A DNA stretch of 36,665 nt, taken from the NCBI GenBank assembly GCA_937922815.1, contig CALAJP010000289.1:1-36665 (forward strand). The letters run 5' to 3'. The position numbers and the translations under genes are program-made. The stretch is from an uncultured Saprospiraceae bacterium (GTDB lineage: Bacteria; Bacteroidota; Bacteroidia; Chitinophagales; Saprospiraceae). This document shows positions 7,444 through 24,892 of this stretch, piece by piece; the first letter of the stretch is position 1, and each line of letters starts with the position of its first letter. The notes beneath the pieces are model-generated. The model saw only the letters and a program-made list of their open reading frames with translations, searched no databases and had not been told where the DNA came from.

Positions 7444-7460
7444 TTACTTGATATTATAAG

Positions 7461-7472
7461 TTGGTTAACCAA
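7461..7472. promoter_or_regulatory. Operator 1: palindrome at the GntR promoter
   Basis: TTGGTTAACCAA is a perfect 12-bp palindrome. Its core TGGTTAACCA starts 12 bases downstream of a -7 box and recurs only upstream of the SusC and PL6 genes. It matches the TGGT-N2-ACCA form known for the hexuronate regulators ExuR/UxuR of the same FadR-type family. No second copy lies 13 bp away here. Confidence 0.75.
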
Positions 7473-7483
7473 ATACATTTTCG

Positions 7484-7516
7484 TAAATATATTAAAACAA
7501 AACTTTTTAAATCAAA
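7484..7516 (-). promoter_or_regulatory. Promoter of the GntR gene
   Basis: On the minus strand TTTG (7513-7516) is followed after 21 bases by TATATTTA (7484-7491), a one-mismatch -7 box. The -33 element begins right at the end of the PL7 gene (stop at 7517), so the regulator has its own promoter in the 73-base gap. The operator at 7461-7472 would cover the start of transcription. Confidence 0.55.
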
Positions 7517-8398
7517 TTAATGAAATACTTTTAGTTTATAGTACTCAACTTTCGAGCTCGCCCAATCATCTTGGGTTATCAAATAGTTACCTGCTTTAAA
7601 ATAATTTTCAAATATTCCCCACTTTTGAATATGAATATCATCATATACTTTCGAGGAGTCATTCATTATTACCTCCATTCTTCCTTCGCTTACTTTCACC
7701 TCTAAAGTAAACTTATCAAACCCAACATATTCGGGAAACGTATATCCTTCATCATCTCCCCAAGCAGAGGTATGTAACATTTCAGTGTTAGTAGCATTTA
7801 AATCTTTTAAGACTTTGGTTTTTACTCTAATTTTACCATTTACCCAATATATTTTCAACATAGGGGGCGCGTTATTGTCATCTTCACCGATTAAATCTCT
7901 TTGGCTATTAGTTAAGCGACCATGTATTTGCATAATAATAGCTCTATGATAATCTTCGTCAGAATCTTTGGTAATCTCCCCCATAGCCAAAGTTCCTTTC
8001 ATCGTTCCTCCTTGAGCAAACGTCCAATTGGTATTATTGCTTCCAGGAATCATCTGTTCTCGTAGCTCCGTTCTCGAATAGGATGAGTTTGTTGTAGATG
8101 CTCCAGGGTAAGTATAAAATACTAATGCTCCTTTTATTGAATCATTATACATAAATGGCTTTAATGTTTCATTATTCGCATAATCTAAAATTTTAGGTGG
8201 TTTTACTTCTGTTGGGTTTCCTATCGGTAAAGTTACTTTCCAATTGTTCAAGTCAATATCAGGTAATTCGTAAGATGTTGTATCCATAAACTGACTAGGA
8301 GGACTTTCAACAATAGTATCTGTTACAAGATCATTGTGTGTACTTTTACAACTTGATAAAAAAATTAAACTTACAATCAATATTGACCAATAATTCAT
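7517..8398 (-). CDS. PL7 alginate lyase, lipoprotein
   Basis: A 293-residue secreted lyase of the alginate lyase 2 (PL7) jelly-roll fold. A lipoprotein signal ends at Cys17 (FLSSC). The three PL7 motifs are seen: SRTELRE at 108-114, QIH at 157-159 and YFKAGNY at 266-272, so the catalytic Arg109, Gln157, His159 and Tyr272 are present. The last motif normally reads YxKAGxYxQ; here the final position is Ile274, with a Gln two residues later, a departure that could affect sugar binding. QIH rather than QVH is often linked with guluronate-containing substrates. It is the last gene of the SusC operon and is probably on the cell surface, releasing oligosaccharides for SusCD. Confidence 0.92.
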   Translation of the reverse strand: MNYWSILIVSLIFLSSCKSTHNDLVTDTIVESPPSQFMDTTSYELPDIDLNNWKVTLPIGNPTEVKPPKILDYANNETLKPFMYNDSIKGALVFYTYPGASTTNSSYSRTELREQMIPGSNNTNWTFAQGGTMKGTLAMGEITKDSDEDYHRAIIMQIHGRLTNSQRDLIGEDDNNAPPMLKIYWVNGKIRVKTKVLKDLNATNTEMLHTSAWGDDEGYTFPEYVGFDKFTLEVKVSEGRMEVIMNDSSKVYDDIHIQKWGIFENYFKAGNYLITQDDWASSKVEYYKLKVFH

Positions 8399-8456
8399 TT
8401 CTCTATTTTTAATTAAAAAACAAGTAACTACAAATACTATTATTTGCTATATACAA

Positions 8457-10409
8457 TCAATTAGCAGTCAAAGTAACATTATCAAGAAAGACTTCATTAC
8501 TACCATCAACTGCATTTAGTGACCTAACATAAATAACAATTTTATTTGAAGATGCTGTGAAATCAAAAGAACTAGTAGTAAACATTGACTTGGAAGTATT
8601 AAAATCATTCGTAATGTTATAATATGCATCAATAGAAGAATGGCTTTTAGAGGCATCAATATCAGCTTCTGTCGTAATTTCTTCGTTTAATATAAATACT
8701 TCTGTATTGATGTCTTCAGCTTCCGACCTCGTATCAATAGTGAATTTATAACTTGCTCCCTGCTCTACGGTAACCAGTTGGTACATACGGCGGTCATTAC
8801 TACTAAATTTAGCTCCTCTTGATGCATTTCCGTCACCAGTATTCGCAGGTTGTTCGTTGGATCCATAAGTTGCATCTATATAGTCATTCAAATCCGTATT
8901 ATTCCAAAGTGCTCTGTATGGACTAGGAACAGTTTCACCGCTTCCGTCAAGAGCTTTGACTGTTGAATTGGGAGTCATGTCCCAAGCATCAACATTATCT
9001 CCATTATCTATTCCTGTAAAATCATCTAAAGTTCCATTAAGGACTTGGACTATAAATCCTTGTGCTACGGTAATCTGTTGTATAGATTTATCAATAGCTC
9101 CAGTAACACTGTAAGCAGTTAAAGTTACGTCATAAACACCGTCTTCAGTATAAGTATGTGTAGGGTTCATTCCTGTAAATTGGAATCCATTCCCAAATTC
9201 CCATAATAGCATTACTGCACCCACTGAAGCATCTGTAAAAGTGTATGTTTTATAATCGTTTGGATCTACTTGAAAAGTAAAGTCTGCTGACACAGGCGCC
9301 TGTATGTCTATTCCTTGACTTAAAGATGTTGATAAATTGGCTTCATTGGTTGCTGTAAGCGTTACGGTATAAGTATCGTGGGTATCATAAACATGAGTTG
9401 GAGACTCTTCTGTTGAAGTATTTCCATCTCCAAAATCCCACAAATAGCTCGTAGCTCCTGTAGATTCATTACTAAAAGAATACTCCAAAAAGTTAGTTTC
9501 ACTTTGTGCAGAACTAAAACCCGCAGAAGGGGGCACTGCTCCGTCTGCGCCTACATCAATAGTAAAATCATCAAGTCTCGCTTCAACAGGTCCATTATAA
9601 AAATAAATAGCTACTGTATTATTTGCCCCTGAACTAAATGCTAAAGTCTGTTGAATATAAGTTGCAGGGTCTTCTGTATCGTTTACTGTTACCGAAGCGA
9701 TAGTTGCAGCAAGTGCTTCTTCTCGAGATGTAGGAACACCATTTTCTGTTATACCTAATATAGATACTGTTACCCAAGGGTCAGTTGCATTACTTAACAT
9801 CGTATAATAGAATCTAAGGTCGTAATTCGTTTCTGGTTCTACAGCAATTTCTTGATAACCAATCCGAGATTCATCATTCGGTAATTTAGCTGCTTGATCA
9901 CCGAAAGAAACAGGACTACTACTAATTTGGATTACACCACCTAAATCACTGTTTCTCCAAGAATCTCTTCCATCTCCTCCTCCTTCAGGTAAAGCATCGT
10001 CTTCAAAACCTGATTCAATAATGATAGGCTGAAATGGACCTTCAACCACAATAACATCTATTGTAACCGTGCTGACGACTCCTAATGCATCAGCCGCTTT
10101 TAATGTTACACTATAAGTTCCTTCTCCTTCTTCGAAAGTATATGTTGGGTCTTTTTCCATAGAAATATTATCGCTTCCAAAATTCCATTCAAAAAGGGTT
10201 GCCTCCGTAGAAAGGTTCGTAAAATTAATCGTTCTAAAGTCTTCAAGAGTAGAAGCATAAGAGAAGTTAGCCTGAGGCAACGCTGTATCGGGTTTAGAAT
10301 TGGAGTCAGGTAAATCATCTCGAAAAATTTCATTCCCAACGCAACCAACCATAAACAAGCTAAAAAGCATCATTACTAAACCAACAAAAGCATTTATTTT
10401 ATATTTCAT
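8457..10409 (-). CDS. PKD/CBM-like surface glycan-binding lipoprotein
   Basis: A 650-residue lipoprotein (signal ending at Cys23, LFMVGC) directly after susD-like, the position of SusE/SusF-type surface glycan-binding proteins. Domains in order: PKD 1 at about 45-123; a beta-sandwich region at 128-290 (starting IIESGFED, ending ARLDDFTIDVG) that looks like a CBM4/9-type module; PKD 2 at 293-370 with the classic WDFGDGNTS; PKD 3 at 372-450 with WEFGNG; and a second CBM-like region at 455-650 ending in VFLDNVTLTAN. No catalytic motif is seen. I infer that it holds alginate at the surface for the PL7 lyase and SusCD. The CBM assignment rests on the pattern of start and end strands and is uncertain; the PKD calls are firm. 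Confidence 0.88.
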   Translation of the reverse strand: MKYKINAFVGLVMMLFSLFMVGCVGNEIFRDDLPDSNSKPDTALPQANFSYASTLEDFRTINFTNLSTEATLFEWNFGSDNISMEKDPTYTFEEGEGTYSVTLKAADALGVVSTVTIDVIVVEGPFQPIIIESGFEDDALPEGGGDGRDSWRNSDLGGVIQISSSPVSFGDQAAKLPNDESRIGYQEIAVEPETNYDLRFYYTMLSNATDPWVTVSILGITENGVPTSREEALAATIASVTVNDTEDPATYIQQTLAFSSGANNTVAIYFYNGPVEARLDDFTIDVGADGAVPPSAGFSSAQSETNFLEYSFSNESTGATSYLWDFGDGNTSTEESPTHVYDTHDTYTVTLTATNEANLSTSLSQGIDIQAPVSADFTFQVDPNDYKTYTFTDASVGAVMLLWEFGNGFQFTGMNPTHTYTEDGVYDVTLTAYSVTGAIDKSIQQITVAQGFIVQVLNGTLDDFTGIDNGDNVDAWDMTPNSTVKALDGSGETVPSPYRALWNNTDLNDYIDATYGSNEQPANTGDGNASRGAKFSSNDRRMYQLVTVEQGASYKFTIDTRSEAEDINTEVFILNEEITTEADIDASKSHSSIDAYYNITNDFNTSKSMFTTSSFDFTASSNKIVIYVRSLNAVDGSNEVFLDNVTLTAN

Positions 10410-10426
10410 AATTAACTTTTTTAATA

Positions 10427-11881
10427 TTAATAACCAGGGTTTTGTGTTAAAATACCTCCACTTAAATTTATTTCGCTTGAAGGAATTGGTAATAATAGTG
10501 CTCTAGAAGTAAATACATATCCTCTATCCACAGCATGTGCACTTAATACATTTTCTGCTACGCCGAACCTAAGAAGATCGAACCAACGTTGATTCTCAAA
10601 CGCAAGTTCTACACGTCTTTCAGTTAGCAAATCCTCTTTAGTAACATTAGAAACCAAATCCGTTAGCCCTGCTCTATTTCGAACTTGCTGAAAAGAATTT
10701 AAAGCTCCAGAATCACTTGTTTGTGTACCATCACCAATCAAAGACTCTACATGCATCAAAAGCACATCGGCATAACGCAAAGCAATGTAATCATTACCTG
10801 CATCACGAGTGCTTGCTCCATATGACGGAGGTGAAGTAGTAATGTCAGATCCTTCTGGTAAAAATTTGGCAACTTCATTTTCATCCTGTCCAAGAAAACC
10901 TAAATTGGTGATAGAAGTAGCTGTTCTGTTCCCCCCATACATGGCAAAATCCATAAAAAGGTTAGCGTTTACAATGTTCTGTCCGTCTTCCCTTCCTTGT
11001 CGGAAAGCAGAAGTATATTCAGATGAAAAACTTTGACTTTCTTGAGCGTTGCCTGTTTCATATTGAATCGCAAAAATTATTTCATCATTCAGTTCTGAAT
11101 AAAAGACATCATTAAAATCATTTACTAAAGTATAATCTTGACTAGCTATAATATCTTCACATAATTGTTGAGCTGCTGAATAATTAGGGCTTGATTGTGT
11201 CAAATAAACTTTAGCGAGTATTCCTTGAGCGGCTGCTTTTGAAGCTCTAGACTTATAGCTGTTATCCAAATTATTAATAGCTTCTTGCAAATCTGCTATA
11301 ATTTGAATATAAATTTGTTCCGTAGAGATTCTCGTAAAAAGAGCTTCAGTATCATCAGCTTGTGTTACCGATGTTACTAAAGGTACATCGCCAAACATTC
11401 TAACCAATTTAAAATAGGCATACGCTCTTAAAAACTTTGCTTCGGCTGCGTACCTTGCTTGGTTAGTAGGGTCTGCTACATCAATAAAATCCAATACGTT
11501 GTTTGCTCTAAAAATAGCTTGATACATTGAAGCATAATAATCTTCAGATTCTACATTATTTGCCTCAACAGTATATCTATGAAAATCAGATTTAGACCCT
11601 TCTAATGTTGCGTTTCTTGTATTATCAGAACGATGTTCAGTCAAAAGGTGCTCAAATTGAAGCCCTCTGTTAACATTACCAATATTGGTTACTGTGTTTT
11701 CATTAACCCCTTGAAAAGCATCATAAATCCCTACAATTCCCGCTAACACATCTTGGTCGGATTGAAAAAACCCTTCAACAGTAATCGCAGAATCGGGTAA
11801 TGGGTTCAAAAAACGGTCTGAATCACAAGACGCAATAACAAAACCCGCCGCAACTATTAATAAATATTTTATATTTTTCAT
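10427..11881 (-). CDS. SusD/RagB-family outer-membrane lipoprotein
   Basis: A 484-residue SusD-like protein with a lipoprotein signal ending at Cys19 (VIASC), the N-terminal FLNPLPDSAITVEGFF segment typical of the family, a TPR-rich middle (AEAKFLRAYAYFKLVRMFGDVPLV) and the C-terminal ERRVELAFENQRWFDLLRFG block. SusD proteins form the lid on the SusC barrel and bind the glycan; here alginate oligosaccharide is the likely ligand from the surrounding lyases. It lies 17 bases from both the SusC gene and the PKD lipoprotein gene, so the three are co-transcribed. Confidence 0.97.
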   Translation of the reverse strand: MKNIKYLLIVAAGFVIASCDSDRFLNPLPDSAITVEGFFQSDQDVLAGIVGIYDAFQGVNENTVTNIGNVNRGLQFEHLLTEHRSDNTRNATLEGSKSDFHRYTVEANNVESEDYYASMYQAIFRANNVLDFIDVADPTNQARYAAEAKFLRAYAYFKLVRMFGDVPLVTSVTQADDTEALFTRISTEQIYIQIIADLQEAINNLDNSYKSRASKAAAQGILAKVYLTQSSPNYSAAQQLCEDIIASQDYTLVNDFNDVFYSELNDEIIFAIQYETGNAQESQSFSSEYTSAFRQGREDGQNIVNANLFMDFAMYGGNRTATSITNLGFLGQDENEVAKFLPEGSDITTSPPSYGASTRDAGNDYIALRYADVLLMHVESLIGDGTQTSDSGALNSFQQVRNRAGLTDLVSNVTKEDLLTERRVELAFENQRWFDLLRFGVAENVLSAHAVDRGYVFTSRALLLPIPSSEINLSGGILTQNPGY

Positions 11882-11898
11882 GATTTGTTTTTTTTCGA

Positions 11899-14800
11899 TT
11901 AAAAATCCAAGTTTAAACCAAAAGTTACTGTTCTAAATATAGGTGTACCTGCTCTTTGTGAACCGTAAGCTCTAGGATTGCTACCGTCTACATGTTCTGG
12001 GTTGAATCCATGGTAGTCATCAGCTGTAACATAGAGTAGATTTTGAGCTGTTGCATAAACTCTTAATCCTGCAAAACCAATTTTAGATAAAATATCTTTA
12101 GACATATTATAACCTAGTGTTACATTTCTTAATGAAAAGTAATCTGCACTTGCAATAACCTCGCTCGTCAATACTTTTTCTTGGATAAAAGATTCGTGTG
12201 GCACTACACCGTCAGCAACTGCTTGTGCTTCGCCACCACTCTTAGTTCTATTTCCAAACCAATTATAGAAATATTGGTCTCCAATATTATTTACTTGGGC
12301 TCCTAAGCTTCCTTGAATCATAAATGAAAAGTCAAAATCTCCATATTTGAATTCATTGGTAAAACTATAAATCAAGTCTGGATATGGGTCTCCTAATATA
12401 GTCTTATCTTCTTCTGTAATAATACCATCTCCATTCAAATCTTTTACAATAGTGTCGTCTGCCTCTCCATTAATTCTATTCCAAGGATTATCAACATAAG
12501 CTGTTCTAAAAGCAACTTCATCATAAGCTTCCTCGTCAACTACATATCCCCAAAATGATGAAATAGGTTGCCCTACTCTATTAATCCATTGAGAATTTCT
12601 TCCATAAGTATCTTCTAATAAAGCATTATTTGAATTTCCAAAATCTAATAACTCATTTTGATTTGTAGAAGCGATTATCGTTGAATTCCAAGAAAATTTC
12701 CCTTCGGCTATATTTTTAGTTCTTAACTCAAATTCCCATCCTCTATTTTGAACTTTTCCTAGATTAACAATACCTGAATTGAAGCCCGAGATATAGGACA
12801 CAGGGTTTTCCAAAAGTAATTTATCACTTGTTCTACTATAATAATCAATAGATCCTGATATTTTATTATTTAAAAACCCAAAATCTATAGCAGGGTTAAA
12901 TTCTTCAGATGCTTCCCATTGTAATGAAGCATTCACTATATTAAGAGGTGAAACACCTGGCGAAATTCCTCCTTCTATTATCGCATTAGTACTTTCTAAT
13001 AAAGCCAAATAAGGCCAAACATTAACAATATCATCGCCTACATTAAAGTTCTCTGAACCTGTAAGACCGTAACTAATTCTAAGTTTTAATCGACTAACAA
13101 TGCTACTATTCTGTAAAAAAGCTTCATTATGAGCATTCCAACCTATAGATGCGGCAGGGAAATTACCCCATTTTGTACTCAAACCAAAAACAGAACTTCC
13201 ATCTCTTCTAAAAGAAGCATTAATCAAATACTTGTCAGCAAAAGCATAATTAACTCTAGCAAAATATCCTATTTTATTCCTTTCTGTATTTATTTCCTCA
13301 AATTCGGAAATAGCGGTAGCCCCCTGTAAATTTTTCAATAAATCATTCGTATAACCATTACCTGTTATATCACTATTTTCTGAAGTTCGTCGCTGTATAG
13401 TTACTCCTCCAAGTAAGTTGATTTCATGTCCTTTCCCAAGATCTCTATTATAAGCTAAAGTATTATCTGAAATAATTCTCGTCCTAAATCTTTCTTGTAA
13501 ATTGTATTGAGACCTACTTGCACCAGCTGCATGGTAGTTAGTACCATCCCACCTTGTTCTTTTTCTTTGATCCAAAGTAATACCAAGAGAAGTCTTTGCT
13601 GTTAATCCATCTATTATTTTATAGCTCAAATAAGTAGATCCGAATAGTTTAGTATTGAATTCGTAGTGCTCTCGTTCAACATATTGTTGAAAAGGATTTG
13701 AATCCCCTGAAGTACGAGGTCTTTCGGTGTTACCATCATCATCCAAGTCCAAATTTACTAGATGGTCTTCCCAAAAGTAGTCCCCAACGCCAACATTTGG
13801 GTAATCATCACGATCAATATATTGCAATGTTTCTTCGGTATGATAGATAGGTAACCATGGTGATTGTCGAGTAGGATTATGTATTGATGTTGGTAATCTC
13901 CTTTGTGTAGAGTACGAAGGTGTCGCCCTTACGCCCATTTTAAGTTTTTTACCTAATTTTGTATCCAGTTTTAATGTCCCTGTAAACAATTTATAGTCAT
14001 CTGTTATCACAACTCCTTCGTCGTGTAAATACCTTAAAGATGTGCTAAATTTGGTGTTTTCGGAACCGCCACGTGCAGATAAAGAATGGCTTGTTATATT
14101 TCCTTGTTCAAAAAAAACATCTTGCCAATCTCTATCAACACCAGTAATACTAACTAATTCTTGTGCATATATTGTTTCACCTGAAAGAGTACCAGTAGCT
14201 GCCTGCTCTTCTTCTGCCCAAGCGGCAACACTCTTTCTATAATCATCACTCCCGTGTGCATTTTTAAATCCTATATAGGTTTGATAACTAAATTTTGTCT
14301 TTCCTGCCTTACCACTTTTGGTAGTTATCATAATGACTCCGTTAGAACCCTCACTTCCATAAATAGCGGCAGAAGCTGCATCTTTTAAGACTTCAAAAGA
14401 TTCAACATCGTTCATATCTAAATTACCAAGAAATTCCGAACTTACTACAATACCATCTACTACCACGGCTGGTCCAGAATCAGCAGTCACTGAACCTACC
14501 CCTCTTATCGTAATAGTAGGAGCACCACCAGCTTCTGCATTAGTAGCTTGGATATTAACCCCAGATACTTGCCCTATCAAAGCATCATCAGCTCTTGCTA
14601 CTGCTATTTGATCTAGAGTCTCATTTTTTACCTTAGAAATGGCTCCAGTAAGATGTGATTTTTTTTGTGTTCCATACCCAACTACAACTATCTCGTCTAA
14701 TATACTTGAACCTTCTAATAAAACTACATTAAGGGTTTCTTGTCCTGTAATTATAATCTGTTGATCAGTAAAACCTATAAACGTAAACTCTACTACATCT

Positions 14801-15006: not shown

Positions 15007-15060
15007 AATTACTTTTTTGTTTTTTAAGAATGTTCTTACGAAGAATATAGAATACATTCA

Positions 15061-15086
15061 TTTGGTACACCAGTTTGGTTAACCAG
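15061..15086. promoter_or_regulatory. Operator 2: tandem 13-bp operator pair at the SusC promoter
   Basis: Two 13-base units lie side by side: TTTGGTACACCAG (15061-15073) and TTTGGTTAACCAG (15074-15086), 11 of 13 bases identical. The promoter-side unit carries the perfect core TGGTTAACCA (15076-15085); the gene-side unit carries the degenerate core TGGTACACCA (15063-15072). Both fit TGGT-N2-ACCA. The pair would sit over the first transcribed bases, where a bound GntR dimer would block the polymerase. Confidence 0.75.
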
Positions 15087-15097
15087 TTTCATTATTC

Positions 15098-15105
15098 CAA
15101 ATATA
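15098..15105 (-). promoter_or_regulatory. -7 box of the SusC operon promoter
   Basis: The minus strand reads TATATTTG, a full match to TAnnTTTG, 12 bases upstream of the operator core. The -33 region is T-rich without a clear TTG. Predicted transcription would begin near 15091, leaving a leader of about 85 bases before the ATG at 15006. Confidence 0.6.
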
Positions 15106-15315: not shown

Positions 15316-15690
15316 TCAAGGCTTATCTCCAAAATAAGACACAGCACCTCCACTTAAAAAATCTTCTCTTACAGGGCTAAAAGTGTCGATTAACATACCT
15401 TCTTCTAAGCAAACTGCACTGTGTAATAAATTAGGCTCAATATATACACCATCTCCTGCTTCTACAATTTTTTTAACCCCATCAATTTCGAATTCAAATT
15501 TTCCAGAAACACAATAAGTCGCTTGAGTATGAAAATGCTGATGTGGAGCACCTAATGCACCTTTTTCGAACTTTACTTTTACCATCATAATTTGATTATC
15601 ATAACCTAAAAATTTTCTTGATACACCACCACCAAGGGCTTCCCATTCCATATTCTTTGTTATCAGGTACTTTTCGCTAAATCTTTTCAT
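15316..15690 (-). CDS. kdgF: KdgF-like cupin, unsaturated uronate to DEH conversion
   Basis: A 124-residue single-domain cupin. It shows the KdgF pattern: GGGVSRKFLGYD near the start, the metal-ligand cluster HQHFHTQATY (His50, His52, His54, Gln56), a later ligand His90 in NLLHSAVC, and the conserved FSPVREDFL near the end. KdgF enzymes speed the ring opening of 4,5-unsaturated monouronates made by exolyases such as PL17 to the linear DEH. There is no signal peptide, so it acts in the cytoplasm. It starts 15 bases after the PL17 gene, consistent with coupling of exolysis and ring opening. Confidence 0.95.
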   Translation of the reverse strand: MKRFSEKYLITKNMEWEALGGGVSRKFLGYDNQIMMVKVKFEKGALGAPHQHFHTQATYCVSGKFEFEIDGVKKIVEAGDGVYIEPNLLHSAVCLEEGMLIDTFSPVREDFLSGGAVSYFGDKP

Positions 15691-15705
15691 AAGTTTAATT
15701 GTATT

Positions 15706-17970
15706 TTATTTGAAATAATAATTACCTGTCCATAGGTAATCTTTTCCATTAATTTTTACGCTGTGTTTTTGTGATGATAGTAAATTTGCTGTTATAAACA
15801 ATGTTTTTTTGTTGTTTGCAAGAGTAATTTCTATCGCTGTATACATATCTGTATCTAATACAACTTTTAGTTCTACAATACTACTTTTAGAGTTTACTGC
15901 AGATTCTGTAACGGGACTATAAGATCCATGTGATTCGATTGTAGAAACAAAAAGCGTGTTTTGGCTGTTGTCTCGCCTTAACATTAATGCGGGGTCTCTT
16001 CTCAAATTAAATTCAGGGTCATTGGCTCCAATTCTTGTAAAGAATAGTTCGTCATTACCATTCGTAATTGAAGTTAAGGTGTAAAAATTTCGGTTATTTA
16101 ACCATGTTAATTTACTATTTCCACTAACAGCATTGGCTCTTCCTTCAACAAATAGGTGTTGATAGCCATTTTTATCACCCAAAGCAGATAATGTTTTAGG
16201 TGTTTTGTATTCAAAGTTTGTTTGTATCACTTGACCGAAAAAATAGTATGGGAAATCATATTTATTAACTTTATCAGAAATTACCTTCATAATATCTAAT
16301 ACATATGGCTTTTCTAAATTTTCATCTTTTATAACTGCCATTGTACGCAATAGCTCTGTTCCTGAGTAGGCGTTGCGTTCGATAGCACTTGCCACCTGCA
16401 CCACTTCATTATCTGAAGAGAAATAATTTAACACAGAATGGTGTTGACTTCCTATTTCATACTTACCGTTAAAATGGGAGGTTTCATTTTGCGTAACTGT
16501 GTTATGTGCAATGGTTTGTTTTGCCCAAGTCTTGTTTTCTTTTAAGTAATTCCCCCCTCCTTTTTGCTCAATATTTACAAATCTTGACAAACCATAGTCT
16601 TGAAGAACTTCGTCTCCATCTTCATATAATGAATATGATAATTTATCATAATGGCCATGACTAGAGCCTTGTGATGCATACTTAAACACCAGTTCTATAT
16701 CTTCATTTCTTAATATGGCAACACCGCCTTGTTTTCCTTTTGATCCATCCGAAAGATTAATGGATTTTTTCTCAAAAGGCACAGCTTTTTTGTTTTTAAT
16801 TCCTAAAGCTACAGCCAAACCAGAATCGTCTAGCAACACGCTACCTTGCTCTGTTGCGATGGATAATAACCCAGGGGCCTGTGTACCAAAATGATACGAA
16901 ATATCTACTGCCGTAACTAAAGCACTTGTATAATAAGACATTCCTTTTTGACCATCATTAAGCGGAAAAAACTCACCGTCAGCGTCAGATAAATTAAGTA
17001 AGGCATTAATTGATTTTAACAAAACACTATCTTTATATTCAAAGATTTTCAATTCTGGTTTAACATTATGTAATCCCTCAGCAAAAATCAAAAAAGGATA
17101 CATGGCATACCGTTGGTAATAGGGACCTTCATTATAATAACCGTCTGGTGAAAAGGGCTCTTCGATATTAGCTAAAAATCCAGCTTTTCCATCTTTATTT
17201 AAAAAACCACCGTCATCATCTTTTTCTTTGGCATCTAATTTTAAATCTTTAATTCCGTAGAGTGCTCGGTCAATTAATTCTTGATCATCCATCACCAAAC
17301 CAATCATACCTACAGCGGCATTCCCCCATGTGCTATGATTATGAACTCTTTGGTAAAACTGTGGACTGTTTATTGAAATATGGTCTGCAAATGGTCTAAA
17401 TAAATTAGTTTCTAATTGATTACGTTCTTCTTCCGATAAATAATCATAGATACAATCATAAGCTTGACTTACATAAACTAACCAGTTCGAGTCGTTTAAA
17501 CATTGCCAAAACAATTTACCTCTTGCATAGGATCGAGTTTTAGGGTGCAATGGCAATGTTTTATACATAGCTTCATATTGCATAAGCATGTCTTTTACAT
17601 ACTTGGCATATTTTTCGTCATCTAAAATTTGATATAATACACCAGCTTTTTGCAGTACTACCATATTACGTTTGTGCCGTACATGCGTATATCCTCCAGA
17701 ATAATCTTTAGGTATTGGTGTGTCTATGCCTAATGCAATTTCCGCATCAATTTCTTCTTTAACAGCTTTTAAGGTTTTATCAAAAATTGGAACCGTTCCT
17801 AAATTAGCTCTAATTTCTTCAACCCCTTTTTTTGTTAAGATTAACTTTGGATGTTGAGACGAATCACTTTTAATAATTTTAGGAATAGATTGTTCTTTAC
17901 AAGAAAAGACAATCAAAGCCATAAATAGTAGTAAGATGTTTAATTGGAAATATTTTGATAGATTCGTCAT
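15706..17970 (-). CDS. PL17 oligoalginate lyase, lipoprotein
   Basis: A 754-residue exolytic lyase with a lipoprotein signal ending at Cys24 (IVFSC). The N-terminal half is the alginate-lyase alpha/alpha-toroid (about 40-400), with Asn211-His212 in VHNHSTWGN and the Tyr-rich EGPYYQRYAMY (281-291), which match the Asn/His and catalytic Tyr region of the PL17 enzyme Alg17C. The C-terminal half is the heparinase II/III-like beta-sheet domain, with the metal-type motif SSHGHYDKLSY and HNTVTQNE. It releases unsaturated monouronate from oligoalginate, probably in the periplasm. The start lies 4 bases after the upstream PL7 stop. Confidence 0.95.
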   Translation of the reverse strand: MTNLSKYFQLNILLLFMALIVFSCKEQSIPKIIKSDSSQHPKLILTKKGVEEIRANLGTVPIFDKTLKAVKEEIDAEIALGIDTPIPKDYSGGYTHVRHKRNMVVLQKAGVLYQILDDEKYAKYVKDMLMQYEAMYKTLPLHPKTRSYARGKLFWQCLNDSNWLVYVSQAYDCIYDYLSEEERNQLETNLFRPFADHISINSPQFYQRVHNHSTWGNAAVGMIGLVMDDQELIDRALYGIKDLKLDAKEKDDDGGFLNKDGKAGFLANIEEPFSPDGYYNEGPYYQRYAMYPFLIFAEGLHNVKPELKIFEYKDSVLLKSINALLNLSDADGEFFPLNDGQKGMSYYTSALVTAVDISYHFGTQAPGLLSIATEQGSVLLDDSGLAVALGIKNKKAVPFEKKSINLSDGSKGKQGGVAILRNEDIELVFKYASQGSSHGHYDKLSYSLYEDGDEVLQDYGLSRFVNIEQKGGGNYLKENKTWAKQTIAHNTVTQNETSHFNGKYEIGSQHHSVLNYFSSDNEVVQVASAIERNAYSGTELLRTMAVIKDENLEKPYVLDIMKVISDKVNKYDFPYYFFGQVIQTNFEYKTPKTLSALGDKNGYQHLFVEGRANAVSGNSKLTWLNNRNFYTLTSITNGNDELFFTRIGANDPEFNLRRDPALMLRRDNSQNTLFVSTIESHGSYSPVTESAVNSKSSIVELKVVLDTDMYTAIEITLANNKKTLFITANLLSSQKHSVKINGKDYLWTGNYYFK

Positions 17971-17974
17971 AAAT

Positions 17975-19015
17975 TTAATTTTTTATTGGCTTTGTCCCTT
18001 CCCCCACTGTTGCATTTTTAAACCACACCTCAGCATAACTCCCGTTATCATATTGCTTAACAATATCGCCTCCATAAATCTCAGATTTAGTACTTTTGGC
18101 ATTAGCCTGATTATATGCACCTTGCTTAAAATAATTTATTTCGCCCGCATACGCTTTTTTACGTTCAATGCCTTTACCTTTATCCTTATTGGCGTAAACT
18201 CGTAAAACTTGTTCAGGAATATCAGTACGCGTTGCAAATTCTGATTCGATTAAACTCTTTGTAAATTGAACTGTTTTGTGACCGTCGCTCATAAAAGTGA
18301 GATACATAATCCCATTATAAACATTTACTTCGTAGCTAAATTCTTCGCCTAGTTCTATCCCATCTTCTGGTTCTTTTGGATATTTGGTTGGATTAGTACC
18401 AACAACTGAAAAATCATGCCCCCAAACTACAGTAGAGTAATCAAATCTCCCAATGTTATCGCCTTTTGTATTGATTTCATAATTCCAAAATACAGAGCCT
18501 TTTGTATGGCTTGGGAATTTTTTATAATAAATTTTCAAAGGTTCGTTTTCGTGTCCTTCATCACTATGAATTTGTCCAATAACTACTGAATATGAAGAGG
18601 CAACTGTAGCATCTCCTGTTGTTGAGACGTGTTGCACCTTTAATGTTCCTGTTAATTTACCTCCTGTTTCTGGTATCCAGTGTTTTTTTTGACCAAGTTC
18701 AGACCTTGTATTGCTTGAAGTCTTTGAAGTAATACCTGAATTAGGTGTTTTATAAACAACCCAATCAATATTATTCTCATTGGCAACATAAAAAAAACCT
18801 TTTTTCTCAAAATTCATTAAATCTTCAGACCGTGTACCATCGCCTAAAAGAATTTTCCATTCATCCATAAAAGGAATAACATCACTAGGATATTTGACTC
18901 CCTTTGACATTTCGCTTTGAACTTTTTTTGCTTGTTCTTTACAACTACTAATCACCAAAAAAAGGCTAACCATTAATAGTACTTGGAATATCGATTTAAT
19001 AGTTATCGTGTGCAT
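17975..19015 (-). CDS. PL7-superfamily alginate lyase, lipoprotein
   Basis: A 346-residue lyase with a lipoprotein signal ending at Cys25 (VISSC). The three motifs of the alginate lyase 2 fold are complete: SNTRSELGQ (Arg104, Glu106), QIH at 148-150 and YFKQGAYNQ at 305-313, giving the expected Arg, Gln, His150 and Tyr311. NEPLKIYYKKFPSHTKGSVFW (about 157-177) resembles the branch of PL7 that includes marine gammaproteobacterial enzymes; PL18 is a close relative that I cannot exclude. It differs strongly from the other PL7 copy in this locus, so the two are not recent duplicates and probably differ in cut preference. It lies between the KDG kinase (57 bases) and the PL17 gene. Confidence 0.9.
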   Translation of the reverse strand: MHTITIKSIFQVLLMVSLFLVISSCKEQAKKVQSEMSKGVKYPSDVIPFMDEWKILLGDGTRSEDLMNFEKKGFFYVANENNIDWVVYKTPNSGITSKTSSNTRSELGQKKHWIPETGGKLTGTLKVQHVSTTGDATVASSYSVVIGQIHSDEGHENEPLKIYYKKFPSHTKGSVFWNYEINTKGDNIGRFDYSTVVWGHDFSVVGTNPTKYPKEPEDGIELGEEFSYEVNVYNGIMYLTFMSDGHKTVQFTKSLIESEFATRTDIPEQVLRVYANKDKGKGIERKKAYAGEINYFKQGAYNQANAKSTKSEIYGGDIVKQYDNGSYAEVWFKNATVGEGTKPIKN

Positions 19016-19072
19016 TTATTTATTATTTAGTCCTTTCGCTGTTTTAGCTTTCATATAGTTTCCTTTCAAAAT

Positions 19073-20074
19073 CTACCTCCTTATTGCCCCAGAAGTATCG
19101 CCCTGCATTAAACTTTCTACATTTTCCAAAGACACCATATTCGCATCTCCTAAAATGGTATGTTTTAAAGCACAGGCGGAGGAAGCAAAAGATATAGCTT
19201 GTTCATCATCGTAATGCAATAGGCCATAAATAAGACCTGCAGCAAAGGCATCTCCTGTACCAACACGATCTATAATATGAGTTATGTTCAACATGTCGGA
19301 TTTCATATATTCTTTACCGTTCCACAATTTGCCTTGAATTTGGTTATGAGAAGCATTTAACGTTTTTCTTGTTTTTTTCACCACTTTCTTAATCTTAGGA
19401 AAAGTGTCTATCAACTGCTTCGCCAAAGAAAGGAATTTATCTTCAGGTTCGCCCAATCCAAACATCTCTTTGATGCCGTGGCTGCTGGTAATTACGACGT
19501 CGCAATTTTGTGTCAAGTCAGATATAACTTCCTGCATAGTCTTTCCGTATTTCCACATATTATTACGTGAATTAATATCTCCTGAGACTGGTATTCCCAA
19601 TTTATTTGCCATTTTGATTGCGTTTAGACAACACTGCGCTGCCCCCTCCGAAATGGCAGGAGTAATCCCTGTCCAATGAAACCAATCAGCATCTTTGAGA
19701 ATCTCTTCCCAATCCACCATTGAAGGCTTTATTAAGGAGAAAGAAGACCCTTCTCTTTCGTAAATTACCTGACTAGATCTATGTACTGCCCCTTTTTCAA
19801 GAAAATATTTCCCCATCATGTCATCTCCATAAATCACATGCTCTGTATTTATCCAATGTTTGCGTAAAAACTGTGCCGCCGCTTTTCCAATAGCATTGTC
19901 TGGAAAACGAGTCACATGAGCAGCTTTCATGCCCAAATAAGCACATGAAATAGCTACGTTTGCTTCACCGCCTCCATACACAAGTTCGAAAGAAGAAGCC
20001 TGAGAAAATTTCTCATATCCCGGTGGGGATAGACGCATCATTACTTCACCAAATGTTACTATTTTTTTTGCCAT
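19073..20074 (-). CDS. kdgK: 2-keto-3-deoxygluconate kinase (PfkB family)
   Basis: A 333-residue ribokinase-family sugar kinase. The N-terminal glycine signature is GGGEANVA (34-41) and the C-terminal PfkB signature is DRVGTGDAFAAG (269-280) with the catalytic base Asp275. It phosphorylates KDG to KDPG, the substrate of the aldolase at 3566-4231. There is no signal peptide, so it is cytoplasmic although it lies among genes for secreted lyases. It starts 5 bases after the PL6 stop. The family assignment is firm; KDG as substrate comes from overall similarity and context. Confidence 0.93.
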   Translation of the reverse strand: MAKKIVTFGEVMMRLSPPGYEKFSQASSFELVYGGGEANVAISCAYLGMKAAHVTRFPDNAIGKAAAQFLRKHWINTEHVIYGDDMMGKYFLEKGAVHRSSQVIYEREGSSFSLIKPSMVDWEEILKDADWFHWTGITPAISEGAAQCCLNAIKMANKLGIPVSGDINSRNNMWKYGKTMQEVISDLTQNCDVVITSSHGIKEMFGLGEPEDKFLSLAKQLIDTFPKIKKVVKKTRKTLNASHNQIQGKLWNGKEYMKSDMLNITHIIDRVGTGDAFAAGLIYGLLHYDDEQAISFASSACALKHTILGDANMVSLENVESLMQGDTSGAIRR

Positions 20075-20079
20075 AATTT

Positions 20080-22413
20080 TTAGTACATCAATTTCATAAC
20101 TAAATTCTCTTCAGTTATTATTTTTCCTGAATTAATTAAATTGTTCTCTGATTCTATATTATTTTTCGCTCCCCATAAAATAGACACAAAATCTACTGCA
20201 TTGTTATTAAATGTGTTTTTAGTAATATTTACATTCACAATACCATTATGGTTTAGTAATCTTTTATTTTTCTCTTTTGCACCACAATTCGTAAATGTAC
20301 TATTGTAAATTAAAAGGTTTCCTCCAATTGTAGATTCATCATAACCACCTCTATAATAATCGATAACATTAGCTTTTACATTATTGAAATCACAGTTTTT
20401 TATGGTTAAATATTCAGTATTATAATCGCCTTTATCGTTTGTTTCTTCAGATAATTCTATGCCATTTTCACAATCTCTAATTAATGAATTTTCAAAAGTA
20501 ATTCGCTCTGCAAAAGACTCTTTATATACCTTTAATACATAATCAAAATTACTTATCTCAGCGTTAGACACGGTTAAACCGAAATGGTTAGACATGTTTT
20601 TCTTTAAACTAGCAAAGGCATAATTCGTGTTATTTCCTTTTAAGTTTAAATTATTTACGGTTAGTTTTCCTTTAGACTGCAAAGAAAATAATGGAGTGGC
20701 TTTAGTACCCAAAAACACAAGCTGTGCTTTTGCTCCCGTTTGAGACTGAATAGTAAGCGTTTTATTAATCACTAAAGACTCCTTTATCTTATGGACTCCT
20801 TCTGCAATAGCGATAATATCACCATTACTAGCATTATTAATTTGGGTTTGTAAGTCTTCGGCTTTAGCTACTATATGTGTTATTGGCACTCTAGGTTCTA
20901 CTACATTCGAATACCATGATGTTCCATATTTAGATTTATCTAAAATATTAGGATTGGAAACATCCGTACCTATTACTGCTCCAATACCTTTATTATTAGC
21001 TCTAGAGTTTCCAAACAAATCGGTCTCAATAGTATTAAAATCAAAACCATTAAACGCTTCAAAATCATTAGGAATATCCGTAGGAATCATAATATAATCA
21101 GATATTTTTTCAAGTGTAAATGGAACCTCAATAATCCCACCATTAAAATTATTGAACTTTACACCTTGATTATTTATGATGTTATTTTTAAAAGTGACTC
21201 CATCAGCTTTGTCGTTTTCAACAACAATATTTTCTAGCCCTTTTGCATTATAAATTATATTATTAGCAACTGTAGTTCGAATTGCTCTCGCTGAACGAAT
21301 TTCAGATTTTGGCAACACATCAGCTTGAGCAATGTTTGTTCCGACACCAAATTGCCATGGCGAGCTACAATTTATATAGGTGTTATATGCAACAACAACA
21401 TCGGTAACCTGATTATAACGATTTAATGGCGACTTAGGGATACCATTCATTACAGCTAATGGACTTCTAAAACTCTTTCCTTTTAGACCATAAAAATAGT
21501 TATTCACAACCCAATGCCCTGTATTTATGATTCTAATTCCACCATAGTTCTCGTTCTTACCATCACCAATAAAATAATTCCCATCAATGGTAGCGTAATT
21601 TCCATGACGGGTAACTAAAGAGCCTTCACTTTTATAAAACACATTATTTTTGAAAACATTAAAATTGGTTTTACTTGAAATAATCTCAACTTCACCATTA
21701 CATTCTTCAAATAAATTATTAGCTACTAAGGTATGACTTGGAGACATAGAAGTATAACTATCGCCTAATTGAATCGATTCACCGCTTGGGCCTCCTTTTA
21801 CAGGCCTTGGTCCAAAATGGTTGTTGATAATTTTGTGGTAATTATTAATACTTTCTATCCCCGCAATATTTATTCTTACTGTTGGTCCTTTATTGGTTTT
21901 ACCTGCTATGTAAGAATTGCTTAATTCATTATGTCTTCCCCAGAAATTAACCCATAAATCTTTTTTATCACGTTTGGGTTGATTAAAATCTTCTATAACA
22001 CAATTAGTGACTTTACAATTATTAGCTATTTCGTCTGGTTTATCTTTATTCGTTATTTTAAAGTCTATAACCGCATTAGATGGCGAAAATCCATTTTTAA
22101 AATGCAAGCCTTCTACCGTTAAATATTCCCCTCCGAATTTCAAATATGATTGACCTTCAATAGTGACTTTACCTGCTGTTTGAGCTTTTAAAGTTATAGG
22201 TTTTTCTTTTGTTCCTTTTCCTCTAAATTTTATTTGAACATCTTTCCAAACACCATTTTTCAAAGCAATATTATCTCCAGGTTCTGCTTTTTTTATAATC
22301 TCATTAAGTTCAGCTAAATCAGAAACCACAATTAAGTTATTGTTATCCTGACAAGAAAAGTTAAAAACTAAAATAGTAAGTATTATTACTTTAAAAAACA
22401 GAGTTGATTTCAT
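20080..22413 (-). CDS. PL6 alginate lyase, lipoprotein (copy B)
   Basis: A 777-residue lyase of the PL6 (chondroitinase-B/alginate lyase) family. A lipoprotein signal ends at Cys21 (FNFSC). Residues 27-430 form a parallel beta-helix containing the PL6 core: Glu241, Glu243, Lys248 and Arg269-His270. Their spacing equals that of the calcium-binding Glu213/Glu215 and catalytic Lys220/Arg241 of AlyGC, so catalysis should be intact and calcium-dependent. A second beta-helix follows from about 505 (ITHIVAKAEDLQTQIN) to the end, as in two-domain PL6 enzymes. It lies 24 bases after the other PL6 gene, to which it is clearly paralogous. Confidence 0.93.
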   Translation of the reverse strand: MKSTLFFKVIILTILVFNFSCQDNNNLIVVSDLAELNEIIKKAEPGDNIALKNGVWKDVQIKFRGKGTKEKPITLKAQTAGKVTIEGQSYLKFGGEYLTVEGLHFKNGFSPSNAVIDFKITNKDKPDEIANNCKVTNCVIEDFNQPKRDKKDLWVNFWGRHNELSNSYIAGKTNKGPTVRINIAGIESINNYHKIINNHFGPRPVKGGPSGESIQLGDSYTSMSPSHTLVANNLFEECNGEVEIISSKTNFNVFKNNVFYKSEGSLVTRHGNYATIDGNYFIGDGKNENYGGIRIINTGHWVVNNYFYGLKGKSFRSPLAVMNGIPKSPLNRYNQVTDVVVAYNTYINCSSPWQFGVGTNIAQADVLPKSEIRSARAIRTTVANNIIYNAKGLENIVVENDKADGVTFKNNIINNQGVKFNNFNGGIIEVPFTLEKISDYIMIPTDIPNDFEAFNGFDFNTIETDLFGNSRANNKGIGAVIGTDVSNPNILDKSKYGTSWYSNVVEPRVPITHIVAKAEDLQTQINNASNGDIIAIAEGVHKIKESLVINKTLTIQSQTGAKAQLVFLGTKATPLFSLQSKGKLTVNNLNLKGNNTNYAFASLKKNMSNHFGLTVSNAEISNFDYVLKVYKESFAERITFENSLIRDCENGIELSEETNDKGDYNTEYLTIKNCDFNNVKANVIDYYRGGYDESTIGGNLLIYNSTFTNCGAKEKNKRLLNHNGIVNVNITKNTFNNNAVDFVSILWGAKNNIESENNLINSGKIITEENLVMKLMY

Positions 22414-22437
22414 ATTTTTTGATATTAGTTGGTGGTT

Positions 22438-24831
22438 TTAATTTCTTAATAAGCCAATAATATTTATTTTATTATTTTCTTTTAATAGAATAGATTTTGC
22501 ACTTGGAATAAAGTTCTTTTTATCCTCCCATTTTGGATTTTTATAAAATATATTTTTCTGAATAGCCCCTTTAGCGGTAGATACCGTACCGCAAGCATTA
22601 AAAACACAGTTTTCAATAAAAGAACCTTCTCCTTCTAAATTTATTGGGGTAATGATTTCGTAGCTATTCTGAAACACTGTATTAGTGATGGATACTTGAG
22701 GAATGTTTTTAGTTTTAATAATCTTGCCCTTTTCTATGTTAGCTACATTACTAAATATAGAATTGGTTATTAATAATTTCCCCTTACCTGTATGCGTTAA
22801 ATAACCTGTTTTTGTATAATTTATAGCATGTTCTTCAATGTTTTGAAAAACGGAGTTATGAATCAATATTGTATTCGCATTATATTTACCTATACTATTT
22901 TTCTCATAGGACAAATTCAACCCTCTATAACTATTTGCAAAGCGAGAATTTTTAATACTTATTGTATCCGCTAAAGTCCCCACGTAGGCTTTAAAAATAC
23001 TTCCTCCTTTTTTGTTGTTAAAATTTTTAAATTGACAATTATCAATAAATAAATTATACAATTCATTATTTTCTTTATCAGGGGAAACAATAGCGTATTT
23101 TACTTGTGTGTCATTATTTCCATCAAATACTATATTTTCAAACACTACTTTAGCTCCTTCCTTTATTCTAAAAAAGTAATTTAATGGTTTTTCTAATTTA
23201 TTTGCAGCTTTGATTGTAGTGTTTCCAGTTCCAACAATTGTAATTTGTGCCCCCAGTTTCTGTGTTTTTTCTTGAACATAAACGCCATCTTTTAAGCGTA
23301 TTGTTGTAATTCCATTTGCTTTCTTAATAGCTTTTGACAACGTTCCTACTCCCGGTTCTACTGTGATATTTTGGGGTTCAATAATTTCAATAGGTTCAAT
23401 AATATGTGGGTTCCAACTAGGTCCAGTTTTCATTCTCAAAGCAATAGGGTTCTTTTTATTCCCCAAATTAAACGCTCCTACTACAAATGGATTTCTCTCC
23501 GATTTTACGATATCTAAGACAGGGCTTTTCTCGTCTTTATATTTTGAAATCAATTCAGGATTTTCACTATTAGGCATTGGTAATGCCCCTAATAACTCCC
23601 AATTTATATTAACTTTAGTACATAAACTTTCATCTACTTCTGCACTAGACTCTACGATATTGTTTTCGAAACTGATTCCTGAAACATCATCCAAAATCTC
23701 AAATATTTTTCCTCCATCAGCATTTGTAATTAAATTGTTCGCAAAAACGGTATTCAGAGGCGTTAGCGTTAGTTCTTCGTTTTTTCCTGCACCAAAAACT
23801 ATTTGCCCACAATTGATTAAAGTATTGTTCTGAACATTTACATTTTTAACCTGATGATACCTATTTAAAGGTGAATTTTTAACCCCATTAACTAAAACAA
23901 TAGGCCCTCTAAACCCTGCTCCTTTCAGACCAATCATTAGATTATTTCTAACAACATGACCTTCGTTTATGATTCTAATGCCACCTGTTTTGGAAACATT
24001 ATTTCCAAGAAACACATTTCTTTCGACGATAGCATTATTCCCATGTCTTAATGTCAAAGTACCTTTGCTCTCTAAAAATAAATTATTTCTAAAAATATTA
24101 TTTGCAGATTTATTTGATATTATTTCTATTTCCCCATCACAGTTTTTAAATATATTATTTTCAACAATAGTGTTCGAAGATTTCATTGAATTAGTACTTG
24201 TTCCAATTCTAATCGTTTCACCTCCATTTACCCCTAATTCTGGTCTTTTGCCAAAAAAATTGTGATCTATTCTATGATTATTTTCAATGGACTCGTCTCC
24301 TTTTAGCCAAACAACCAAGGTTGTTCCTTCATTTTTTTTGCCTGTAAAATTATTATGATCTACCCTATTATTCTTTCCCCACAAATCCACCCAATGAGAT
24401 TTTACCGTTTTATCTAAAGGGTTGTAGTAAGAAATAGCGGTATTACTTAACCTACAATTATTAGCTATTTCTTTAGAACTTTTCCGAAAAGAGATAATTG
24501 ATTTAGAAGTTGGGTTTCCATCTTTAAACCATAACCCACTAACTGTAATATACTCCCCTGCAATTGTCATTTTAGAGTCTCCCGTAATTATTACTTGTCC
24601 TGCTGTTTCTGCTTTTACCGTTATAGGTTTTTCTTTTGTACCAATTCCTTTTATGTTTAATACTACATTTTTCCATTCTCCATTTTTCAAAATGATGGTA
24701 GTTCCTTCAGATACATTTTTTATAACTTCATTAAATTTTTGTATATTCTCTACTACAATAGATGCTTCTTGTGAAAACAAGAAACTTGTATTTAATAAAA
24801 ATAACACCAGGGCAAATGTTTGTTTATGCAT
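22438..24831 (-). CDS. PL6 alginate lyase, signal-peptidase-I type (copy A)
   Basis: A 797-residue PL6 lyase and the first gene of its operon. The N-terminus has a normal cleavable signal (SFLFSQEA) without a lipobox Cys, in contrast to copy B. The catalytic set is Glu234, Glu236, Lys241 and Arg262-His263 with the same spacing as in AlyGC. The first beta-helix runs to about 430 and the second from about 485 (NITVEPGVGTLSKAIKKANG). It is probably a soluble periplasmic enzyme, while copy B is membrane-anchored. The operator pair and -7 box lie 20-60 bases upstream. Confidence 0.93.
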   Translation of the reverse strand: MHKQTFALVLFLLNTSFLFSQEASIVVENIQKFNEVIKNVSEGTTIILKNGEWKNVVLNIKGIGTKEKPITVKAETAGQVIITGDSKMTIAGEYITVSGLWFKDGNPTSKSIISFRKSSKEIANNCRLSNTAISYYNPLDKTVKSHWVDLWGKNNRVDHNNFTGKKNEGTTLVVWLKGDESIENNHRIDHNFFGKRPELGVNGGETIRIGTSTNSMKSSNTIVENNIFKNCDGEIEIISNKSANNIFRNNLFLESKGTLTLRHGNNAIVERNVFLGNNVSKTGGIRIINEGHVVRNNLMIGLKGAGFRGPIVLVNGVKNSPLNRYHQVKNVNVQNNTLINCGQIVFGAGKNEELTLTPLNTVFANNLITNADGGKIFEILDDVSGISFENNIVESSAEVDESLCTKVNINWELLGALPMPNSENPELISKYKDEKSPVLDIVKSERNPFVVGAFNLGNKKNPIALRMKTGPSWNPHIIEPIEIIEPQNITVEPGVGTLSKAIKKANGITTIRLKDGVYVQEKTQKLGAQITIVGTGNTTIKAANKLEKPLNYFFRIKEGAKVVFENIVFDGNNDTQVKYAIVSPDKENNELYNLFIDNCQFKNFNNKKGGSIFKAYVGTLADTISIKNSRFANSYRGLNLSYEKNSIGKYNANTILIHNSVFQNIEEHAINYTKTGYLTHTGKGKLLITNSIFSNVANIEKGKIIKTKNIPQVSITNTVFQNSYEIITPINLEGEGSFIENCVFNACGTVSTAKGAIQKNIFYKNPKWEDKKNFIPSAKSILLKENNKINIIGLLRN

Positions 24832-24848
24832 TGAATTACATTATTATA

Positions 24849-24874
24849 TTTGGAAAACCAAACTGGTTAACCAA
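24849..24874. promoter_or_regulatory. Operator 3: tandem 13-bp operator pair at the PL6 promoter
   Basis: The perfect core TGGTTAACCA lies at 24864-24873 and a degenerate core TGGAAAACCA at 24851-24860, exactly 13 bases apart as at the SusC promoter and in the same order (degenerate copy on the gene side). The units are TTTGGAAAACCAA and ACTGGTTAACCAA. The pair lies 18-43 bases before the ATG at 24831. Confidence 0.72.
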
Positions 24875-24884
24875 TTAAACATTC

Positions 24885-24892
24885 CCAATATA
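24885..24892 (-). promoter_or_regulatory. -7 box of the PL6 operon promoter
   Basis: The minus strand reads TATATTGG, one mismatch from TAnnTTTG, 11 bases upstream of the operator core. The sequence TATATTGGGAAT parallels TATATTTGGAAT at the SusC promoter. No clear -33 TTG is seen. Confidence 0.5.

Follow-up and report, generated by a model that had tools for sequence, protein, structure and literature searches.

Putative operators of an AusR-type GntR regulator at three promoters of an alginate utilisation locus in an uncultured Saprospiraceae bacterium

AusR of Zobellia galactanivorans, reportedly characterized by Dudek et al. in Nucleic Acids Research in 2020, carries an FCD domain, and the papers cited below assign it to the GntR family. 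According to the available passages of these papers, AusR acts as a GntR-type repressor on most of the alginate genes in Zobellia, it binds promoters via single, double or triple operator copies (PMC7874173), and its binding is inhibited by alginate-derived intermediates or oligosaccharides (PMC7874173, PMC8286568, PMC8073546). For the FadR subfamily of GntR regulators, the accessible part of another source gives the consensus TKGT/ACMA with a GT-AC gap of 2 bases in UxuR and 3 bases in ExuR, states that palindromes of the TGGT-N2-ACCA form are bound by several GntR subfamilies, and has no Bacteroidetes regulators in its FadR-subfamily set (PMC4494728). Here we analyzed a 36,665-nt stretch of DNA (contig CALAJP010000289.1, the window) from an uncultured Saprospiraceae bacterium, in which the ten-base element TGGTTAACCA precedes three predicted transcription units of an alginate utilisation locus. 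Judging from the sequence and by analogy with AusR, these three sites are very probably operators of an AusR-type repressor (GntR family, FadR subfamily, with an FCD domain) encoded in the locus itself, which would keep the locus off until alginate is present. This kind of switch is already known from Zobellia (marine flavobacteria), and the window is, by that analogy, a further case of it.

Exact copies of TGGTTAACCA were found at 7462-7471, 15076-15085 and 24864-24873, as stated in a preliminary description of this DNA, and a scan of the whole window revealed no exact copy beyond these three. In shuffled windows the mean number of copies is 0.07, and none of 100 shuffles reaches three. The locus is encoded on the minus strand throughout, and all three sites are intergenic: one is placed 18 bases before the start codon of the GntR gene, one between a KdgF-like cupin gene and susC, and one ahead of the first PL6 gene. 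The gap between the end of the 8-base TAnnTTTG-type -7 box and the first base of the operator is 12 (GntR), 12 (susC) and 11 (PL6) bases, in agreement with the 11-12 bases given earlier. The earlier assignment of one copy per promoter holds for the GntR gene and fails for susC and PL6, where second copies 13 bp downstream had been missed. The second susC copy is a perfect TGGT-N2-ACCA at 15063-15072 (TGGTACACCA), exactly 13 bp from the main one, and the second PL6 copy, at the same exact distance, is an imperfect site at 24851-24860 (TGGAAAACCA in the plus-strand reading). The GT-AC gap is 2 bases at the four perfect sites of the window. According to the available part of PMC9723704, the -7 box of Flavobacterium psychrophilum spans -12 to -5; from this span, transcription starts are predicted at 7479, 15093 and 24880, together with the operator positions given below. 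Operators are labeled by their place relative to the box, O1 overlapping it and O2 and O3 following at one and two periods.

7462-7471, minus strand: operator O2 of the GntR (ausR-like) gene, TGGTTAACCA, predicted +9 to +18
7484-7491, minus strand: -7 box of the GntR promoter, TATATTTA, 5 of 6 consensus letters
15076-15085, minus strand: operator O2 of the susC promoter, TGGTTAACCA, predicted +9 to +18
15063-15072, minus strand: operator O3 of the susC promoter, TGGTGTACCA in the minus-strand reading, 13 bp downstream of O2, predicted +22 to +31
15098-15105, minus strand: -7 box of the susC promoter, TATATTTG, 6 of 6 consensus letters
24864-24873, minus strand: operator O2 of the PL6 promoter, TGGTTAACCA, predicted +8 to +17
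24851-24860, minus strand: operator O3 of the PL6 promoter, imperfect, TGGTTTTCCA in the minus-strand reading, 13 bp downstream of O2, predicted +21 to +30
24885-24892, minus strand: -7 box of the PL6 promoter, TATATTGG, 5 of 6 consensus letters

Each of the three promoters has O2, and susC and PL6 have O3 in addition, the GntR operator being single; no recognisable O1 was found at the three promoters of the window.

Genome-wide, TGGTTAACCA occurs seven times in 3.88 Mb, compared with 13 occurrences of the reversed-pattern control. The four copies outside the locus all fall inside open coding frames, namely a 94-aa open frame (contig C81), a gene that we take to be uvrA-like from its translation (C157), a presumably tsf-like gene recognized in the same way (C262) and a 131-aa frame (C290). 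The tandem form TGGN4CCA-N3-TGGN4CCA is found in the genome only at the susC and PL6 promoters of the locus, and its reversed control is absent. The three copies could in principle be chance palindromes near promoters, since the looser form TGGTNNACCA is found 67 times in the genome against 72 for its reversed control. As TGGTNNACCA alone is not rare, the argument for operators is carried by position, tandem form and conservation; with none of the 100 shuffles reaching three copies, the tandem form confined to this locus and the sites conserved at fixed registers in 80 related loci (see below), a chance origin is scarcely conceivable.

The combined pattern TGGTNNACCA-N13/14-AATATA gives five strand-rows genome-wide, of which three are the sites themselves, one is on the reverse strand at the PL6 operator, and one is a place at position 1439 of contig C248; one row of the reversed control makes this pattern alone weak evidence. 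The C248 place was considered as a distant operator and rejected, as it lies in a hairpin with a T-run behind it, flanked by exbD-like genes, and looks like a terminator. At this place (1428-1461, L146 in G000:C248), TGGTAAACCA is inside a perfect hairpin with the T-run, a terminator-like mimic of the operator pattern. No regulon member outside the locus was revealed by the genome-wide tandem search, and the box-operator search gave only this terminator-like place. A lone distant operator may exist elsewhere in the genome, where 50 of the 67 TGGTNNACCA places were listed.

The candidate regulator is encoded immediately downstream of the first operator.

6742-7443, minus strand: FadR-type GntR regulator, AusR-like, 233 aa, GntR helix-turn-helix and FCD domains, conserved D151, H155, H200 and H222

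The protein matches PF00392 (GntR helix-turn-helix, E 2.3e-16) and PF07729 (FCD, E 2.1e-23), and this gene is the sole FCD match of the genome, which is 96.57% complete. The intact FCD metal site ascribed earlier to a FadR-type GntR gene in the locus is supported by residues D151, H155, H200 and H222, which are invariant in all 118 compared relatives. These residues align with D, H, H and H of chain 2di3, where we take the Asp/His/His/His set to be metal ligands. Chain 2di3 is LldR, according to the available part of PMC4494728. In a tree of 119 rows, the window regulator falls into a set of six together with three Polaribacter proteins, one Tenacibaculum protein and one further Flavobacteriaceae protein (support 100/90), within an AusR-like side of 85 rows (100/100, midpoint root); the bootstrap of this tree was not quite settled. 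The tree places the window regulator in the same clade as the alginate-locus regulators of Flavobacteriaceae.

The conservation of the operator was analyzed in the best 80 of 574 confirmed relatives from named genomes (loci L042-L121), which have a regulator identity of 72-82% and are nearly all Flavobacteriaceae, none being a Zobellia record by title, so that the counts describe the closest relatives. Upstream regions of 300 nt were used, leaving out matches that start after query residue 40 or have less than 250 nt upstream. Among these loci, 78 of 80 match at least one of the alginate-lyase genes of the window. TGGTNNACCA was found upstream of susC in 71 of 77 cases and upstream of the regulator gene in 51 of 82, and before other genes at PL6 (6/9), PL17 (6/25), PL7b (4/18) and MFS (5/75). 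It is rare before mostly internal genes (PKD 0/54, kdgF 0/57, eda 0/54), with further counts of 1/57 for kdgK, 2/99 for SDR, 4/74 for susD and 2/47 for PL7a. A search of related genomes for the motif before susC and PL6 genes had been suggested in the preliminary description, and these counts are its outcome. Of the six susC upstreams without the site, four belong to second susC genes in loci where the other susC carries it; counted by locus, the site stands before a susC gene in 71 of 73. Five rearranged half-sites are absent from all 82 regulator upstreams, and TGGT ranks first of all 256 half-sites, being found in 120 of 153 susC and regulator upstreams, with the next half-site in 41.

The position of the sites relative to the promoter is conserved as well. 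The best-box gap is 11 (28 cases) or 12 (9 cases) at 37 of 50 Flavobacteriaceae-type regulator promoters. Before susC, 110 of 112 pairs of neighbouring operators have a spacing of 13 bp. Tandem clusters number 104 in 75 of the 80 loci, and their first operator overlaps the -7 box, sharing its TG; all six box letters are present at 94 of 104 first operators and at least five at 98. The background is 11.5% (5165 of 44935 TGG occurrences in the same loci with at least five box letters on the given strand), and as the clusters were scored on the better of two strands, the fair control lies nearer twice that value. The better box lies on the strand of the nearest recognised gene in 92 clusters and on the opposite strand in 9, with 3 ties. 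An apparent peak of the susC box gap at 25 bases (34 upstreams), obtained when the box was sought only fully upstream of the first operator, was discarded as misleading, the box overlapping that operator, as a reading of 50 susC upstreams showed (matches of 45% identity or more that begin no later than query residue 60, with L087, near a contig edge, set aside). The box overlap and the 13-bp spacing together put O1 at about -6 to +4, O2 at +8 to +17 and O3 at +21 to +30, with the single operator of the regulator gene at O2.

Several peculiarities of individual loci were also recorded. An extra operator or tandem pair lies between the regulator and MFS genes near 10.76-10.82 kb in L044, L054, L068, L071 and L106 (some Polaribacter, others), perhaps splitting the unit; L081, L120 and L026 have two regulator gene copies each. 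L108 and L109, two contig ends in a single Kriegella aquimaris genome, carry identical regulator proteins, and the sequence near upstream is identical too, reflecting either a duplication or an assembly break. The element TGGTGGACCA recurs after the SDR start near 12.55-12.98 kb in many loci (e.g. L044, L055, L062, L071); it is probably inside coding sequence and a putative non-operator.

The dyads could be real operators bound by another regulator (a non-FCD GntR, a LacI-type or other protein), the neighbouring GntR controlling something else. Such palindromes are bound by several GntR subfamilies, as noted in the available part of PMC4494728, and the FCD class alone was counted in the genome. 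Against this, the GntR gene itself is preceded by the operator in 51 of 82 cases of the Flavobacteriaceae type and in 33 of 36 from the host's own family or order, the genome has one FCD match, the spacing appears tied to the regulator clade rather than to the host family (in a small sample), and AusR provides a precedent (PMC7874173, in the part available). We consider another regulator unlikely. The earlier link of the in-locus GntR to the operator is supported by the sole FCD match, the sites before its own gene (51/82) and before susC (71/77), the Asp/His/His/His residues invariant in 118 of 118 relatives, and the AusR precedent.

Under control by the AusR-type regulator, a dimer would bind each TGGTNNACCA dyad. 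The main dyad would cover about +8 to +18 at all three promoters and the second about +21 to +31 at susC and PL6; given these positions, a bound repressor would block transcription start or promoter opening and/or the first RNA polymerase steps (early elongation), and the single operator at the GntR gene would imply autoregulation. Binding of an alginate breakdown product, such as 2-keto-3-deoxygluconate (KDG), 4-deoxy-L-erythro-5-hexoseulose uronate (DEH) or a short unsaturated oligo-uronate, in the FCD pocket would lead to DNA release. The proposed dimer binding, repression, start sites, metal and ligand draw on AusR and on the position of the sites. The elements lie inside predicted transcribed leaders and might instead act in RNA, as a hairpin or riboswitch-like leader. 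However, a gapless 10-base palindrome would leave no loop (by reasoning, without folding), and in relatives the first tandem copy extends into the -7 box, which is outside the transcript (at least five of six letters in 98 of 104), making an RNA element very improbable.

Several observations weigh against an AusR-type repressor acting through these operators. The boxes of the GntR and PL6 promoters have only 5 of the 6 letters of the -7 consensus, and inspection by eye revealed no clear -33 TTG at the susC and PL6 promoters. Among relatives, 31 of 82 regulator upstreams lack a perfect site. A one-mismatch site occurs at -19 to -35 in six of them and only near -95 to -114 in three others, whereas the best sites of the remaining 22 have two or more mismatches, which means that autoregulation is not universal. 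Finally, L042 and L119, short contigs of which 12.0 and 5.4 kb were examined, are without any perfect operator.

GntR regulators of the host's own family and order were compared using 36 regulator rows drawn from the highest-scoring matches; proteins shorter than 180 codons or with no usable start (L143 among them) were left out. At least one TGGTNNACCA lies within 200 nt upstream in the 33 of 36 cases mentioned above, and a SusC- or PL-like match is found beside the regulator in 24 of 29 loci with own-family GntR genes (L010-L038). Across these rows, the operator spacing is 15 bp in 17 of 26 neighbour pairs, 14 bp once and 16 bp three times, and the operator core is mostly CA or TG, compared with TA or AA in Flavobacteriaceae. 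The first operator of these rows overlaps the box in 15 of 33 cases and follows it by 13-14 bases in 9; no box of at least five letters was found in 4 of 33. Two own-family regulators, from genomes G192 and G160 (L010, L011), belong to the AusR-like side of the tree, and 13- or 26-bp pairs occur near them (L040 7811/7824, L041 973/986, L039 14687/14713). These data suggest that the operator period follows the regulator clade and not the host, in a small sample where the 15-bp pairs were measured before regulator genes and the 13-bp pairs mainly before susC.

The same geometry admits a broader joint proposal, in which operators form a lattice anchored on the -7 box (O1 overlapping the box by its first TG, with O2 one period and O3 two periods further on), the length of the period depends on the regulator clade (13 bp in the AusR clade, 15 bp in its sister clade, which occurs in the host's own family) and not on the host, regulator and lattice move between families as a unit, and the window holds a transferred cassette that lost or never had O1 and kept O2 and O3. 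We put it forward tentatively, being slightly more inclined to doubt than to accept it as a whole. If it is true, a cassette without O1 should be leakier or stop polymerase elsewhere. The difference between the 13- and 15-bp periods poses a testable question on the packing of neighbouring FadR-type dimers on DNA, and also bears on how transferred cassettes stay regulated.

The alginate cassette (3566-24831) was likely acquired from Flavobacteriaceae into the genome of another family, as judged from sequence identities on which not all genes agree. The window regulator reaches 82% identity in Flavobacteriaceae versus at most 62% in other genomes of the 199-genome own-family sample, and none of the other 59 relatives searched exceeds 50%. 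The host family is taken to be distinct from Flavobacteriaceae on these grounds, 62% being the ceiling among the other 198 sampled own-family genomes and 72-82% the range in 80 Flavobacteriaceae-type loci. SusC identity is 78% in Flavobacteriaceae versus 71% in the own family, a direction that favours transfer, and the SDR gene (89% versus 88%) does not discriminate. The flanking photolyase has 53-62% identity in six of seven own-family genomes and 47% in the seventh, with long matches of at most 45% in 11 Flavobacteriaceae genomes, which is a clear fit to the own family. Elongation factor Ts, encoded on another contig, is 60-70% identical in the own family versus 44-63% in Flavobacteriaceae, which is a weak fit to the own family, as the ranges overlap and one of 12 genomes has no match; the flanking epimerase does not discriminate between the two. 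A contig artefact or assembly chimera may also account for the cassette.

The locus combines the regulator gene with SusC/SusD, alginate lyases, a KDG kinase and an aldolase, arranged in three predicted transcription units.

15316-24831, minus strand: unit 1, PL6 (22438-24831), PL6-like (20080-22413), KDG kinase-like (19073-20074), PL7 (17975-19015), PL17-like (15706-17970) and KdgF-like cupin (15316-15690)
7517-15057, minus strand: unit 2, SusC-like (11899-15057), SusD-like (10427-11881), PKD-repeat protein (8457-10409) and PL7 alginate lyase (7517-8398)
3566-7443, minus strand: unit 3, GntR (6742-7443), MFS transporter (5344-6642), SDR or DEH reductase-like (4470-5234) and 2-keto-3-deoxy-6-phosphogluconate (KDPG) aldolase (3566-4231, after a 238-bp gap)

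Four of the six genes in unit 1 have Pfam matches (Chondroitinas_B, PfkB, Alginate_lyase2, Cupin_2). We read Chondroitinas_B as PL6, the names PL17, KdgF and KDG kinase are presumed by recognition, and the genes at 20080-22413 (PL6-like) and 15706-17970 (PL17-like) were presumptively named by reading, without a Pfam scan. Unit 2 has PKD and Alginate_lyase2 matches, its SusC-like and SusD-like members being presumably so by recognition. No terminator-like site was found in 3300-7600. The KDG kinase-like gene (19073-20074) is inside the PL6-PL7-PL17 unit; in many relatives it lies beside the aldolase instead. SusC probably begins later than the start called at 15057; a signal-peptide-like start (MKLKFT) occurs 17 codons on and would leave a leader of about 87 nt after the predicted transcription start. 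Adjoining the locus on the opposite strand (26202-31397) is a 1731-aa secreted-looking repeat protein with a GTG start, whose C-terminal region we take, by recognition only, to be gliding/type IX secretion-like.

A literature search with the exact motif letters and alginate yielded no paper on this system by title or by the passages returned. The box-fixed lattice, the 13- and 15-bp clade periods, promoters without O1 and transfer do not appear in the available passages of the AusR descriptions (PMC7874173, PMC8286568, PMC8073546); the original Zobellia description may give some of the geometry. From the DNA itself, the present analysis supports the pairing of a regulator with its operators in a pathway of carbon cycling, in a host that appears to lie outside the family of its description. 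It also suggests a simple finder of AusR-like regulons in genomes, namely the tandem TGGN4CCA-N3-TGGN4CCA beside a TAnnTTTG box.

The preliminary description had likened the sites to those of ExuR/UxuR. UxuR and ExuR come from another phylum and another pathway. In operator form, as given in the available part of PMC4494728, the window sites fit the FadR-subfamily consensus with the UxuR-type 2-base gap, which sustains that part of the comparison, whereas the ExuR gap of 3 is not found at them. The closest known system is AusR of Zobellia. Both regulators are of the GntR family and belong to alginate utilisation, the window having its gene in the locus; the window has single (GntR) and double (susC, PL6) operators at alginate promoters, and the predicted repression would likewise be relieved by alginate breakdown products. 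Possible differences from Zobellia, as known here from published descriptions, are that the window host appears to lie outside Flavobacteriaceae, that no third or box-overlapping operator was seen at its three promoters, and that the KDG kinase gene has moved into the PL6 unit. The sister GntR clade of the host's own family shares the FCD type, the neighbourhood of SusC- or PL-like genes and TTGGTNNACCAA operators at the -7 box, and differs in identity (43-52%, 34 rows), in core (mostly CA/TG rather than TA/AA) and in period (mostly 15 rather than 13). The 80 closest loci share with the window a 72-82% identical regulator, the same operator, the 13-bp period and the box-operator gap at the regulator gene; their tandem clusters usually start with a box-overlapping operator (98 of 104), whereas those of the window start one period downstream, at O2.

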